DNA from: Toxoplasma gondii ME49 | Lineage: Eukaryota; Apicomplexa; Conoidasida; Eucoccidiorida; Sarcocystidae | NCBI RefSeq assembly: GCF_000006565.2 | Contig: NC_031480.1 | Span: forward strand, 1,070,144-1,134,143 | Direction of reading: 5' to 3' | DNA length: 64,000 nucleotides | In this document: in pieces, positions 19,815 to 57,277 of the stretch | How positions within the stretch are numbered: the stretch's first letter is position 1 | Layout of the letters: every line of letters begins with the position of its first letter | Program-made: the position numbers and the translations under genes | The notes under the pieces: model-generated | Told to the model about the DNA's origin: nothing | Databases searched by the model: none | Seen by the model: the letters and a program-made list of their open reading frames with translations, nothing else

Positions 19815-22800
19815 TCATCTGTTCCCTGTTGGCGCGCCTTTTATATTCAAGAACCCCCGAACTAGAATGGCTCGGTTTCTCAACTTCATTTCACGGGCGT
19901 GAGGGAAAGCAGTCTTGTCGACTTTCCACAGTTGTGCGTTCGAGTTCATGAGATGGTCCCAGAGTGCTACACTTAATAGTCGGGACCTGCCGTGCTGAAT
20001 CACGACTGCCCTGCCCGAGTGCGAGGCATTTGCCACCGTCAAATACGGCTCACCACATGCACGCGGACACTCCTCGATTCGATGCCGCAGACGTTGCTCG
20101 GAAACGTCGTCGTTAGACAACTCTCGCGGCCCGGTCGGCTGCTGAGCACTTGTGTCATGATCAGTTTTCTTCTCGTCCCCGCCACTTGAGGTGGGTGACG
20201 CGGCGCATTGTCCGCCAGATACAGAGTTGCCTGCCTCATCACCAGACGGCGATAGCAAACCCGCCTGGGAAATAATCACGCTTTGCTGAGACTTTCGGCA
20301 CGCGTGCCCCACAATTACCCCATAATGAGCCTTACGGCCTCCTTTGATGACAGGGCATCCTCCCTCAGAATCATATGGAATAATCATGAGCCATCCGCGA
20401 TCCACAAACGAGGTGAACTCAGTCCATGCATTCCTGTGGAGAAGAATCCTCTGTATATCTGCTGTGGCGTGCGTTCCCCCGTCAGCCGTGTTACAGTCGA
20501 CGTCGTGGCAGCAGGCGAATTCCACTAGCGCGGCGTCAAGGTGTGCGCCTACGCGCGCGAGACGAACGAAGTCGTACACACTGAAAAGCTCGCCGTCCAT
20601 AGAAACTCCCCAATCTCTCGACAACTTCAACAAATGGTCTCCTAGAATGGCAGCATCCCTAGCCACTGCTGTACCGCCTGCATCTCCTGTACTGGTGATG
20701 GGTTGCCCCTGGCGTTGCTCCGTGTTCGCGAAAAAAGTGGATGCCATGCAAAGTGCACTGATGCCACACGATGGCCCAATCTGTCTGCACCATGGGGTGT
20801 CCAGTAGTTTGTAGGTCCAACCAGTGCGTGTGCAACCCGTTGCGAAGTATCCCTGTGTTGCCGTGGGTTCGCACAGATTCGAGATGCTTGTCTCTGCTTT
20901 CTGGGCCAACAAGGTATTGCAGCTGAGAGCGTTTGCTTGCATCGTACCTCGGAATTCGTTTGCCCTAGCTGCCGGAGAGCTATTTGTCAGCAAATCCAGA
21001 CTAGTAGACACTTCGACACAGCGCTGAGACAGTGGGAGGTGTTCGGGTTCTGCTATGCACGGACCCACGCGCTTACGAAGCCATATATCTCTGCTGGATG
21101 GGTCGTTGATCCGCTGGTCTGGGTTTCCGGAACCGGCAGCTGCCATTTGTCCCAGAACGTTGGCTTCATTTTTCCTACCCATGGCCAGCGCTTGTCTGTT
21201 CATCATATTCTGGAGAGTGGAAATCATTGCTTCCTGTTGAACCGAGCTCAAGCGGGAAAGACAGGGACTTTCAACCTCCATAGCCAGACACCGCTGGTAG
21301 CTGCAAAACACAAATGCGCAACAAGTAGGAAGTGTTTTGGGTGACGCGGCGGTACAAAAGTGTACCACCCGTCGATGATAGGAGACGACCAGTCTCTACA
21401 GATCCAATTCTCCATAAACCAGTAGTTAGCCAGAGTTGCTTATATTGAGAGGTGTGTAAGGAAGCACCTGATAGGAAATCAGTCCCTGCTGCCCTCCCGT
21501 GATAGAGAAAGAGCCGCATCGTGTGTATACTGTGATTTGCCAGAACACTTTGTGTCCCCTGCGAGACAGCCGAACAACATCAGCCCTCAGAGAAGCCGCT
21601 ACGCATTATCGTAAAAAGGATTTTTGTTGCGACCCGCGAAGCCTTATCCACATTCCTTGTCCTTGCAACGGTTCAGTGGCCACCAAATATCAGAAAACTC
21701 ACCCAAGTTTCTCATAGAATCCCGCTGCGGCACGAGTCCATAAAACCACATAGTCCGCCTTTAAATCTACAGAAGCAATAGTCTCCACCATGCGCATAAG
21801 AAGCTGTCCCCAGCCTTTTTTCCGCACTCGAGCATCCACCGCCACGTAAGTGACCGCAATATACCGCGCCGGGCATCCAGCTAGTGAACAGGCCTGTGAA
21901 AGGTAGGGGGAGAAACAGTCAATAATATACCTTGATCTGGAGACAGTGTCACGAATTCATCAAATTGCTTTTAGAGTGGCTGCTCAACGACTTTGATCGC
22001 AACACTGGACAGATCTCGAAAAAAACAGTGCATCAGCGTGGATCTACAAGGAACACTCCCACTAGCAACCGTGCAGAGTGGGTGTGAGATGTTGTTAACG
22101 TGAAACCAAACCCGGTGTAGACACCTATGTGGGCTCTCGGTAACCGCCAGCGGCGGAGTGTGGGAAAGAGGATCCACCGGTAGAGTGCGACACTGTAACA
22201 CGGGCAATGGATCGTCTTCAGAGTGGTAGCTCACCAGTAACCTTGCATGTCCGATCACAGAGGATCCAGCCACCATCAAAAAGCTGCACGGAAGCGTGTA
22301 TCCTGAGTTTTTGTTTTGTATGGTTGCCGCGGAACTACACAAGAACTGTTTGAGTGCGATACTGTTTTGTCCTCGGTGCGTAGGCGAAGTTATCATCTGC
22401 TGAGCGAGACTTGATGCGGACCGCGAGCCTCGGTCACCTGCCTCAGCGCTCCTCGTCCACAATGATGGCCACTCTGTCGTCAAGATGTGAATAGCCTGAC
22501 ATATCCAATTCTCGACCTGCTTGCCCTCCATTTGATTCCGATGTGACGGGCCAAGCGGTGACACGGAAACACAGCCGCGAAATTTTCTATCCACCTCTTC
22601 ATCAGCGTGTGATGCAGAGGTGACACTCCAGTGAGCATCTTCTGATGGCGCTTGCGCAGAATACCACTCGGCATCATTCTGACAGCTTGCTCTCTCGCTG
22701 GGAGGCACCACAAGAGAAGCCACATGGACTCCCATACAGCAATCCCGACCGGACCGCTCCGAGGGGGAATAGCTTGAGTTTCCATCATCGATTTCTGGTT

Positions 22801-22897
22801 GAGAGGTTCTGCATTGCTGCATGCATTGGTCACGGCCAAGTCGCACGCCAATGACACGGAATGTGTTACTACTGGCAGTGTCAGCGGGTTTGGCCAT
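19815..22897 (-). CDS. Fused NAA80-like actin N-acetyltransferase and ACTMAP-like actin maturation protease
   Basis: Three exons, 22235-22897, 21703-21893 and 19815-21300, sum to 2340 nt (779 residues). Residues about 120-290 form a GNAT domain: AIHILTTEWPSLWTRS resembles the first helix of NAA80, then SFLMVAGSSVIGHARLL, the acetyl-CoA loop RKKGWG (245-250), and FYEKLGY (280-286), which is created exactly across the second splice. Exons 1 and 2 join as GHARLL/ACSLAG in phase 0 at a GTGAGC donor. Residues about 450-760 match ACTMAP (human C19orf54), a C39-like cysteine peptidase: QIGPSCGISAL with Cys463, IIPYDSEGG followed by KAHYGVIVGH with His610, and LWDHLMNSNAQL with Asp733. In animals ACTMAP removes the acetylated first residue of actin and NAA80 acetylates the new end; both are cytosolic. 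Start has a good context (accATGG). The 150-residue linker looks disordered. Each half is a confident family match; the fusion depends on the exon 2-3 join. Confidence 0.85.
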
Positions 22898-52550: not shown

Positions 52551-55500
52551 ATGCCGCCTTCATCAGTAGCGGGGCGTAGTCGCCTCATGAGCGGTAAAGG
52601 AATGGAGACATTGGCAAATCAGTCAGGGAATATTGTTGGACAAACACCTTCGTTCACGCCCAACTTGGTCAAAGACGGAGTTCATTCTAATGGAAGGGAC
52701 GGGGGCAAAGGCACGCGGGGTCCACTCCATTCGGGGACGAACCGTGGCTCCGTCGACTCTGACGCAGCTCGATTCCAGTGTGCACAAACACCCCGGAAGC
52801 TTCAGTTTTTCAAGGTAAGGAAGAGGATCAGTAAAGGAGCTAGTTGCGTGCTTGCGGATTGAGTGTGTCAGGTGCTTCGCGGATGGACGCACAGTGTGAA
52901 TAGCCTTTAGGACATACAGTAACAATCAGATAACAATGAATCTAGACTCCCCATTGCCCATTGTCAATGAGATCCCTATGCTTACAGAAACTACCGTTTT
53001 CTGGGGTCTGTATAGTACGGGTTAGTAACGCTTGACATTTTGAAAGACGGAGGCCGTAAAGTGGAGAGCAGCAAAGCTGGACCGAATATAGGCTGGCAGC
53101 TAAAAAGAAGGAAGGGTGAAACAGATATGATTCCTTGATACAGCTGTCGTTGTTGAAGCAGTGTGCGACAGTCGTGGCGCTGTATCGGGTAGAATGTGTC
53201 ATTCATAAACAGACGAGTCTTGGAGTGTTTCCTGGATCTCCAGAGTGACAATAAAGAACTGTCCGTCGTGTGGCGTCGCTTTGAGAAAACATTTCAAGCA
53301 TCGATCTGTGGTTTGCTTTTACGTAACGATACAGGAAAGTGGGGGTGGCTGGTTCAGGGTGTGTGGCGTACGAGTTTTGCGGCTTCTGCTGTTCTCAGAC
53401 CAAAATATGCCCATGGTATCACAAAGGCGGCTGTGACAGGGGACTCGCCTGTCAATTTGCTCACGGTTTGTCGGAGCTGCGCGAGTGCCCAGATCTCAGG
53501 AAAACGTCACTTTGCCCCAATGTCAAGCGAGGAGGATCATGCACGATACCCGGCTGTCACTACGCTCATCGGGTTCACGAGTTGCGAGCAACGGGGTATG
53601 CTGTGGACTCACTGTGGCCGTTCTTTTTTCCATAATAGAGCGGCATCATGGAACTTTTCATGCGTCCGCGACAAGTGGCGCTGCGTGTCTTTTGAGAGGA
53701 TTGTATACCGCTGTTAACCATTGGAAACACGGATTCGCGAGGCAGAATGGCACGCAAAAGTGTGTTTCCACGAAGAAAGCGAGTCTAACGAGCAGCGTAG
53801 ACGAGCAATTAATAACCACAACTGCATTTGGACTTCCAAAACACCAGAGTGTTGGGAGAAAGGGGGGTGCACAAAGACGCTGATGTTTTTTTTCGGTATT
53901 TTCCCACGTATGATGGTATATGCGACAGTTGCCGGTGACGCATCATGGTCTGCAGCGTAACAGTCTCCACAAATAGTTATGTGATGACTTACCTGTTTCT
54001 GGTATGGTGTTGTCAGCCAACTGTACAAAACCGCGCTGTGCGTGAGATGGCAGATGGGCCGATGCAATGCTGGAAGTCTCTGCAGACATGCGGTAAGACA
54101 ATTTAATGAAGTGCTTTTTACCAGCCCAGCGGTGTGCTGTGATGACTATTCGGCTTTTTCACTTAGCATCTCTCGGGTGTTCGGAGGATTAGCCAAATGA
54201 GGCGGCATGTGTAGTTTGTCTTCAAGAAACCACGTGGTTGTGGGTTGCAAGCCAGGCGAGGGAAGGATGAAACGTATTAACAGCGAGAGCAAACCGCATC
54301 TCAGATGCAATTATGGGCAGCACTGTCGTACGGGGCGTCACGTACTCCGAGACAGGATTATTCATACGCGTTTCCATGTTACGTGAGATACGTAGTAACC
54401 TCCATGTAGCGATAATATCAAGTATGGTGTTGGAGCAAGGATGGTTGTAGGGTACGGAGGTCCGCTTTCAATCGCCAGTAAGAATTGCTGACTTTCTGTT
54501 CCGGCGGAATTTGCCAGTCATGATCCTGTCCTGGTTACGCTTCGTGTTCGCAGCACGGAAAAAACGAAATGAGAAATGGTCGAGGCGTGCCACCTCTGAG
54601 TGGACCAGGTGATGACAGTTTGCCTCCACTCCTCGTTGGTTCACGTTCTCCGTCTTTACCGGCAGGGCGGCGACTGCGATCTCGAACGAGCGCACCAGTA
54701 ACGTTTTTTCAGGCGACGCGACGGAGGCAGTCCCAGCCTTTTCCTTTTGACCAACTGGAGACACTCGGCGAACCAGGCGTGTATGTCCCTTGCGAGCGGC
54801 GTCTTACGGCACAGATCGGGGGTGGACACGAAGCGCACTCGACGTCGTTGCTCCTCTCAAAACTGATCGCATCAAAAGCTCAGTCAGTCTGTCCCGTTTT
54901 GGACGCACAGCGCGGAGAAGGCCATTTCAACGAGGTCAACCCTCACAAGGAACTGCAGATTCAGTTGCGACGAGCGACCAGGGGAGGTGTAACACCTGCA
55001 AAGATGACAGCGAAAGACTCCGACGTTTTATGTGGCCAGTCTGCAGCCGTTTTCCAGTTGAATTCGCTGCGAAGGCCGGGGAGAAATGAGGGTATGGCCT
55101 CCACTTCGAATGGCCAAGAAGGCCCGTTTGGCGACATCTTGCGTGAAGCAAAGAGCCTTCCGCTTGAACAATCTTGTGGCAGCGCTGCTGCTTTAGCCCT
55201 CGAAAACCTGACTGTTCCACGTGTAAATGGGGGATTCGAGCGTCTTCCTCTGCTTGGCGCGGCGTCTGAAGACACACTCAACCGCCCGCAAATTATCGAC
55301 CAGGCGATTGTTGCACGGGATAGAAAGCTCGGAGAGATATTCTCGCCGTTGTCTGTGGATCTAGATCCCGCGGAACTGCAGACCAGCTGGAACGTACCTC
55401 TGCTGCATGATGATTTTGTCGCATCGCTGCATGCGTTGTCTTCGCGTGACGCCAGCGGACATGAGTGCCCGCGCTCGGCTGGAATTTGTCGGCGTGACAG

Positions 55501-57277
55501 TGTCTCAGTTGGCACCGGTGGAAACAGAGAGGGGTCGAGGCTGCCGCCATCAACCATGGTGTCGCTGCATGCGCGCGAGCTGGGTTCTGGCAGAGCTTCT
55601 GTGCGACCGTTGGAAGGCACGGTACCGCGTTCTTTCAGAAAGACCAGTGGTCCCACCCCGACTCTGCCCGGCTCGCGTGAAATCGATGGCGAATACTCTT
55701 TCATAGACAAACTGCAGTGTTGGGAATCGCGGAATCGGATGGTAGCCCAGGACAATCCGTTCGCTTGCCACACCGCTTCCCTGGAGACGGGCAGCGGCCG
55801 TCCAAGCTGCAATACTCCACTGGCGTCTGGCCAACCTGGGACCAAAGACACTGGCAGCGTAACTGGCTCCTCTGAACACACCGCAGACGTTAGTACGTCT
55901 GGTTATCCCCCGGATTTGCTAGCGATGCACCGAGGGTGCAGGCGCGCGTCGTCAGGGGCCTCAACAATCGACACGACCCCGCGCAGCATTGACGCATTGA
56001 GTGGCCTGTTGTGTTCTCTCAGTCTCAGCCCGTACTCTCCGACGATCAACAGTGGACCTGGATGCCAGACCCTTGTGGGACGGAGGGATACATTCGACGC
56101 ATCTGGCGAGAGTGTTGTCTCAGGAGCGCTCAACAAGCTTCGCACAGCGTCCTCGGAGGATAGTCACGAGCCGACACGGGAGCGTCCGGTTGATATGCTG
56201 GCGGTCCACGGATCGATTCAGGGCAGTCGTCCCAGCGTGGAAACATGTTCGGATAGCCACAGCATCAGGCAACTCCACGACATCGATGCGGCCCTTGGGT
56301 ACGGCCTCATCACACCGATCGCCTTGACTTTGTCTGGCGTGCGTGGATCTCAATTCCATGTTTGGGGAGTGCAAGGCGGCAGACAGTCCGAACTCCGTGG
56401 GAATGGACGGCGGGAGAAAACGGGCTTTGTGGAAAATCCAGATAGTCACAGTCTACAGAGCGTGAACGTCCCGAATATTTCTCCGGGGCTGGAGAGTGTC
56501 TGTGGCTGGATAGACAAGGACAACAGCTGCGGTTTTGGGGTTGGGAAAAGCCAACAGGAAAACTTGGAAGAAACTGGGAGAGACAGCGACTTCGAGAAAG
56601 GCTGCAGCGACCGTAAAGCTCTTGACATCTCAGACGTATCGTGGGAAGGTGACCCAGATGTCCAATATCTTCGCCACGAAGCGTTGCCAGAAAGTGCTTC
56701 ATTGTGCAAGGAAGGACAAGCTTTGAGCATCGGTGTGACCCGTGCGTCAGTTGTACAATGTGTCACTGGCGCGCCAAAGAGCAGTGTAGGTTCTGAGCGA
56801 CAGGCTGTTGGAGAACTTAACGCTCAGGAGGAATCGACTGTCTGTTGGAAGGTGGACGAGAAGAACCGCATGCGTGAAGAAAACGTTTGCGGAGGGGTAC
56901 CGGCGGTGAGGAGCGGGTGCATTTATACCCCCTATGATATGGGATCATGTCCATCGGGCAGGCAGAGGCGAGCAAAAGATGAGATTGTCAGCGGGGCAAA
57001 TTTGGGATTTCTCGCGCAAGAACGAGTTGTAGACGAACATCACGATACTTCGGAGCTTCTATCGGAGATAGAGGCCTTCCGGCGAACATGCTGCGATAGC
57101 GGTGCCAGTGTTAGCACTTGCTGCAGTCGCAGAGAGCCTGCAGACACCCCGGTTGGGAACGCTGTTAAAGGAGAGCAAAGTGACAACAGCGGATGTCGAG
57201 TACCAGCTGACAGTGGCCACTGCTCTGTGTTGTTCAGTGGTCCGGATCTGTTCCGGGCATCTTGGGATTTACCGTGA
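52551..57277 (+). CDS. Large CCCH zinc-finger protein
   Basis: Exon 1 is 52551-52814 and exon 2 is 53399-53595. The last exon runs from about 54554 to the TGA at 57275-57277 and is one open frame of about 900 codons. Two CCCH fingers sit in exon 2. The first is C92-x7-C100-x5-C106-x3-H110 (CPWYHKGGCDRGLACQFAH). The second is C127-x8-C136-x4-C141-x3-H145 (CPNVKRGGSCTIPGCHYAH). Each is followed by an ELR motif, as is usual for apicomplexan RNA-binding CCCH proteins. The rest is Ser/Gly/Arg-rich and probably disordered. Exon 2 ends in phase 2 (GG before GTATGC), while the last exon opens in phase 0 after CGCAG. A 7-base exon at 54086-54092, with good signals on both sides, would reconcile them, giving about 1063 residues. 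A role in mRNA binding or stability is inferred from the fingers. If the join is wrong, the long exon could be a gene starting at 54569. Confidence 0.78.

Follow-up and report, generated by a model that had tools for sequence, protein, structure and literature searches.

Structure of the gene

The window (the whole stretch of 64,000 nucleotides of T. gondii ME49 DNA analysed here) carries a gene on its minus strand, at about 1.09 Mb of contig C14. When joined, three coding exons (22235–22897, 21703–21893 and 19815–21300) form one continuous frame of 779 codons closed by a stop. The coding part of exon 1 starts with the ATG at 22897, with an in-frame stop 8 codons upstream. It encodes residues 1–221, comprising an N-terminal stretch, a helix region with an EWP motif and the first GNAT strands up to GHARLL. 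Its donor, GTGAGC, opens a GT...AG intron of 341 bases (21894–22234, minus strand), and the protein is continuous at this junction in the public T. gondii, Hammondia, Besnoitia and Cystoisospora models. Exon 2 (minus strand, residues 222–285) holds the GNAT core with RKKGWG (21807–21824) and FYEKLG, and its donor is GTGAGT. Intron 2 (21301–21702, minus strand; 402 bases, GT...AG) has a stop of the GNAT frame just inside it. The last GNAT strand, a linker and an ACTMAP-like domain are encoded by exon 3 (minus strand, residues 285/286–779 and the stop). Both acceptors are pyrimidine-rich and end in CAG.

Left unspliced, the GNAT frame ends at 21699, straight after KLG, and the protease frame is a separate open reading frame of 526 codons. 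Many other GT/AG pairs would also keep the frame; we chose the set 22235/21893 and 21703/21300 because of its consensus sites and its match to public proteins. The public T. gondii and Hammondia proteins are of identical length, which implies the same exon junctions. The original prediction had placed all its motifs in one frame of a single gene after splicing. This is what we found, as every motif it quoted is present and the 779-codon model has the length of the public protein. Its in-phase join of exons 2 and 3 is likewise confirmed by the spliced model, with conservation across the junction in Hammondia, Besnoitia and Cystoisospora.

Elsewhere in the window, an open frame of 917 codons (54524–57277, plus strand) has no Pfam match at E 0.01. 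Nine frames of the window reach at least 260 codons, and no Pfam match was found in the five further ones that were scanned.

The N-terminal half resembles NAA80

Exon 2 alone scores above the Pfam cut-offs for PF13508 (30 bits, cut-off 27; 7e-7) and PF00583 (8e-5). The latter is passed by 11 rows of the genome search, nine of them scoring better than the present locus. The acetyl-CoA motif RxxGxG reads RKKGWG, and R245, G248 and G250 are invariant in all four models that have the GNAT half. We found no close paralogue of the GNAT core in the genome (next E 0.45).

We compared the fusion proteins with sequences of known structure in the PDB. A four-row profile of the fusion matched Drosophila NAA80 at 5.3e-11 and human NAA80 at 0.0017, and the next, non-NAA80 match stood at 0.37. 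A three-row profile of the GNAT part alone gave the same picture (NAA80 at 2.1e-11 and 0.0046, next at 0.3). Fly NAA80 was the sole match of the T. gondii protein searched by itself up to E 10 (1.8e-8). The Cystoisospora protein matched fly NAA80 at 0.0007 and human NAA80 at 0.013, followed by seven weaker rows from 0.15. Moreover, profile comparison with the two NAA80 chains gave a probability of 98.1 and an E-value of 8e-14. In the reverse direction, fly NAA80 matched no locus of the genome other than the present one (E 0.0087; a single candidate was scored), and human NAA80 had no match there. Human NAA80 alone matched two of the five fusion sequences and missed the window's own, while a joint fly–human profile recovered all five, among them the window's, at no worse than 5.5e-8 (on a scale of 8,000 proteins). 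A generic GNAT reading was considered and set aside: NCBIfam matches (ArsN2, RimI and others) lie far below cut-off, and the PDB searches set NAA80 apart. Hence, among GNATs with a known structure, NAA80 is the closest to this half, as had been predicted.

The likeness to NAA80 (NatH; human and Drosophila, PDB 6nas and 5wjd) comprises the GNAT core, the acetyl-CoA motif and a Trp-Pro pair in the first helices. An LPCS strand is as in fly, a GHARL strand as in human, and the domain closes with FYxxxGY. In the GNAT helix region (22448–22522, minus strand; residues 126–150), Trp143-Pro144 is set against Trp36 of fly and Trp105 of human NAA80. Both residues are invariant in the four coccidian models with the GNAT half and in the two NAA80 chains.

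Other positions depart from NAA80. The accessible part of one paper gives W36, R38 and R43 of fly NAA80, equal to W105, R107 and R112 of the human enzyme, as substrate residues (PMC10318143). The position of Arg38/Arg107 is S145 here, and reads S, S, S and A across the four models. For Arg43/Arg112 the outcome depends on the alignment: an ungapped count puts S150 at W+7 and the basic residue (R, R, R, H) one place earlier, at W+6, whereas a gapped alignment sets a later Arg of all three coccidian rows against it. The Asp-Gln of the NAA80 motif T-x-D-Q-x-x-F-Y is also lost, being Ala-Ala here and Gly-Ala in Cystoisospora. Because the Arg38/Arg107 equivalent is lost along with these other departures, we call the half NAA80-like and not NAA80. 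It further differs from NAA80 in being fused to a protease domain and in an insert of about 40–95 residues after the first helices. We saw no polyproline loop, a feature also absent from the insects examined, according to the accessible text of PMC7864067.

The C-terminal half resembles ACTMAP

The ACTMAP-like domain occupies residues 446–767 (19854–20819, minus strand) and contains three variable inserts. Exon 3 alone reaches 49.6 bits against Pfam PF21646, ACTMAP-like_C (cut-off 27), with a match over approximately residues 457–617, which bears out the proposal of an ACTMAP-like C-terminal half. PF21646 is above cut-off in all five public homologues as well. With exon 2 over the PF13508 cut-off and exon 3 over that of PF21646, the observation is beyond chance. 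A second PF21646 locus was not found in the genome of 65.3 Mb in 1,959 contigs (searched up to E 10, one candidate past the first look), where pieces of the present locus were the only matches. Exon 3 had no meaningful match among PDB sequences (best E 1.5).

The QIGPSC motif (20766–20783, minus strand) supplies Gln458 and the putative nucleophile Cys463, and KAHYG the putative catalytic His610 (20325–20327, minus strand); all three residues are invariant in the five homologues. Asp733 of LWD (19956–19958, minus strand) reads D, D, D, S and T in the same five, with Ser or Thr in Besnoitia and Cystoisospora. Asn739 in SNAQL (SNxQL; 19938–19940, minus strand) is Asn throughout and is an invariant alternative to Asp733. 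The original prediction had described a Q-C-H-D layout as in ACTMAP. The first three residues of that layout stand, but since D733 is kept in only three of five homologues and is otherwise Ser or Thr, a conserved Q-C-H-D set is unsupported. The accessible part of PMC13367750 gives C132 as the catalytic cysteine of human ACTMAP, and Cys463 is its putative equivalent by motif position alone.

Overall, the domain shares with human ACTMAP (C19orf54; PF21646) the motif order GP(T/S)CG, GE(M/L)FSV, IPYD and KAH, with Cys and His invariant. It differs in its position behind a GNAT domain, in its three long variable inserts and in the loss of the LWD Asp in Besnoitia and Cystoisospora. As a further query we used a fragment that we take to be human ACTMAP/C19orf54, which matches PF21646 at 153.9 bits. 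Compared with exon 3, it is identical in 43 of 161 aligned columns (27%; E 7e-9 for a single comparison). The same fragment had no match in the genome, which we take to result from a limit in the first look of that search.

Both domains are joined in coccidian homologues

The nearest public entry is a T. gondii protein, also of 779 residues, with 767 of 779 identical; by our delimitation, all 12 substitutions lie outside both the ACTMAP blocks and the GNAT core. Four of the five public homologues contain both domains: those of T. gondii (779 residues), Hammondia (779), Besnoitia (756) and Cystoisospora (818). The Hammondia record carries the label UNVERIFIED_CONTAM in one source. The fifth, a Neospora model (P0003, 457 residues), consists of the protease half only and starts inside the equivalent of exon 3; it is probably a truncated gene model. 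P0003 is named as a GNAT protein despite having the protease half alone. The other entries are called 'acetyltransferase, GNAT family protein' (T. gondii, Hammondia and Besnoitia) or 'gnat family protein' (Cystoisospora). These four entries represent this very protein or orthologues of it; the two Pfam domains are already on record for them, and the names cover the acetyltransferase only.

Three protein searches returned 5, 4 and 4 proteins, all coccidian, and no relatives beyond; Eimeria, Plasmodium and Cryptosporidium lay outside the comparison. In two of the searches scoring was confined to the 8000 candidates with the most words in common, and the third had 697 candidates. The Cystoisospora protein was recovered in one search and missed in the other two, once although it was in the query alignment. 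The negatives of these searches are weak, because a row of the four-row query was itself lost.

We then compared conservation along the chain. Between Cystoisospora and T. gondii, 64 of 103 residues of the GNAT core are identical, and the ACTMAP blocks score 22/35, 27/44, 22/42 and 28/55. Identity in the linkers is 11/55 and 8/63, and in the large insert 13/90. With cores conserved and linkers not, selection appears to act on both halves. The two are also tied together physically in the gene: exon 3, which carries the protease, opens with the last GNAT strand (from Y286 on), and this speaks for a single message. Moreover, the alignment with fly NAA80 covers residues 197–308 and so spans both exon junctions.

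A block between the domains (residues 356–382; 21009–21089, minus strand), beginning DIWLRKRVGPCIAEP, is conserved as well, with 23, 25, 22 and 15 of 27 residues identical in four homologues. This linker block, DIWLRKRVGPCIAEPEHLPLSQRCVEV, shows roughly the same degree of conservation as the catalytic blocks, and scans of the window protein and its homologues placed no Pfam family there. AlphaFold2 models of the full length (five sequences, mean pLDDT 29.8) and of the ACTMAP part (six sequences, mean pLDDT 38.7) were too low in confidence to be read for a fold, such as a papain/C39-like one in the ACTMAP part.

Actin N-terminus and a possible maturation route

In animals, the counterparts of the two halves are separate enzymes: ACTMAP trims the actin N-terminus and NAA80 re-acetylates it. 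For class II animal actins, the accessible parts of two papers describe a route in which Met is taken off, residue 2 is acetylated and then clipped, and the acidic residue is acetylated (PMC8358657, PMC11465159). A 2023 paper calls the ACTMAP clip and NAA80 acetylation animal-specific in its accessible text (PMC10318143). The portion available of a 2025 review describes actin N-terminal processing as widespread, not universal (PMC11853071), and PMC8358657 lists the title of a 1981 study on such processing in Dictyostelium, outside the animals.

The best actin match in the genome begins MADEEVQALVVDNGSG (MADEEV; locus L002 from position 1492 onward, G000:C2:998471-1000021), in agreement with the predicted Met-Ala-Asp-Glu-Glu start. 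It resembles a class II animal actin with Ala instead of Cys. In this conventional actin gene the reading frame is interrupted following DFDEEMK and picks up again at AAEDSSDIEK, the pattern that an intron would give.

We suggest that the product of the fusion gene is probably a single bifunctional enzyme that matures the N-terminus of actin. This reading is supported by the actin start MADEEV, by the single in-frame model with the identities of its two domains, and by the contrast between conserved cores and variable linkers. Several observations count against it. Human NAA80 and the presumed human ACTMAP fragment had no match in the genome, the Neospora model is without the GNAT half, and the Hammondia record bears a contamination flag. 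The lost actin-contact Arg of NAA80 and the variable D733 also count against a textbook NAA80/ACTMAP pair.

By general rules, Met1 of actin would be removed by methionine aminopeptidase and Ala2 acetylated by NatA. The ACTMAP-like C-terminal half would then remove acetyl-Ala and expose Asp3 (Asp-Glu-Glu), and the NAA80-like N-terminal half would acetylate the exposed Asp. We infer this clip-then-acetylate order because the class II scheme, with Ala for Cys, fits the two halves; the enzyme activity, the actin substrate and any hand-over between the halves are likewise inferences. The original prediction took the fusion as direct evidence of a link between the two activities. That wording is too strong, and we regard the fusion as a suggestive sign of linkage.

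Alternative explanations

The exons might belong to two messages, a GNAT gene (exons 1 and 2) and a protease gene (exon 3), merged only by gene prediction. The Neospora model, which begins within the exon 3 equivalent and has no GNAT half, would suit such a split. However, the GNAT frame meets a stop within intron 2 while its last strand is still missing, and exon 3 supplies that strand from Y286 onward. In Hammondia, Besnoitia and Cystoisospora conservation also carries on past the junction, and the fly NAA80 alignment (residues 197–308) crosses both junctions. We therefore consider two separate messages very improbable.

The fusion may also be real with one half not an active actin enzyme: for instance, the GNAT could work with the protease half acting as an actin-binding part or scaffold, or the reverse. 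Replacement of the substrate-contact Arg of NAA80 and the unsettled third catalytic residue of the protease (variable D733) would be expected under this scenario. It is nonetheless unlikely, as Q458, C463 and H610 are invariant in all five homologues, RxxGxG is kept in the four models with the GNAT half, and both cores are more conserved than the linkers. Finally, both halves could be active on a substrate or substrates other than actin, the actin link being borrowed from animal relatives. The substrate-site residues of the GNAT have indeed diverged, but each domain independently points to actin maturation, and the actin of the same genome keeps the required acidic start behind a small residue. 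This makes a different substrate decidedly unlikely in our judgment.

Implications

Extending the bifunctional actin-maturation reading to the group, it is conceivable, at somewhat below an even chance, that coccidian parasites mature actin by one bifunctional enzyme in which actin is handed from half to half. What would be new is the fused form of known enzymes; the protein and its Pfam domains are already public, under names that give the GNAT only. In the accessible parts of the open literature we found no earlier report of a GNAT–ACTMAP fusion, and a prior mention is possible. The new aspect would be that a parasite with actin-based movement combines both types of enzyme in a single protein.

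One recent study produced recombinant Toxoplasma actin in insect cells, according to its accessible text (PMC10902351), and the N-terminus of such recombinant actin may differ from the native one. If the proposal is true, the ACTMAP and NAA80 steps, animal-specific in print, operate in an apicomplexan as one covalent unit. The fusion would link both enzymes, give candidate machinery outside animals, and offer a compact system for asking whether the two steps are coupled.
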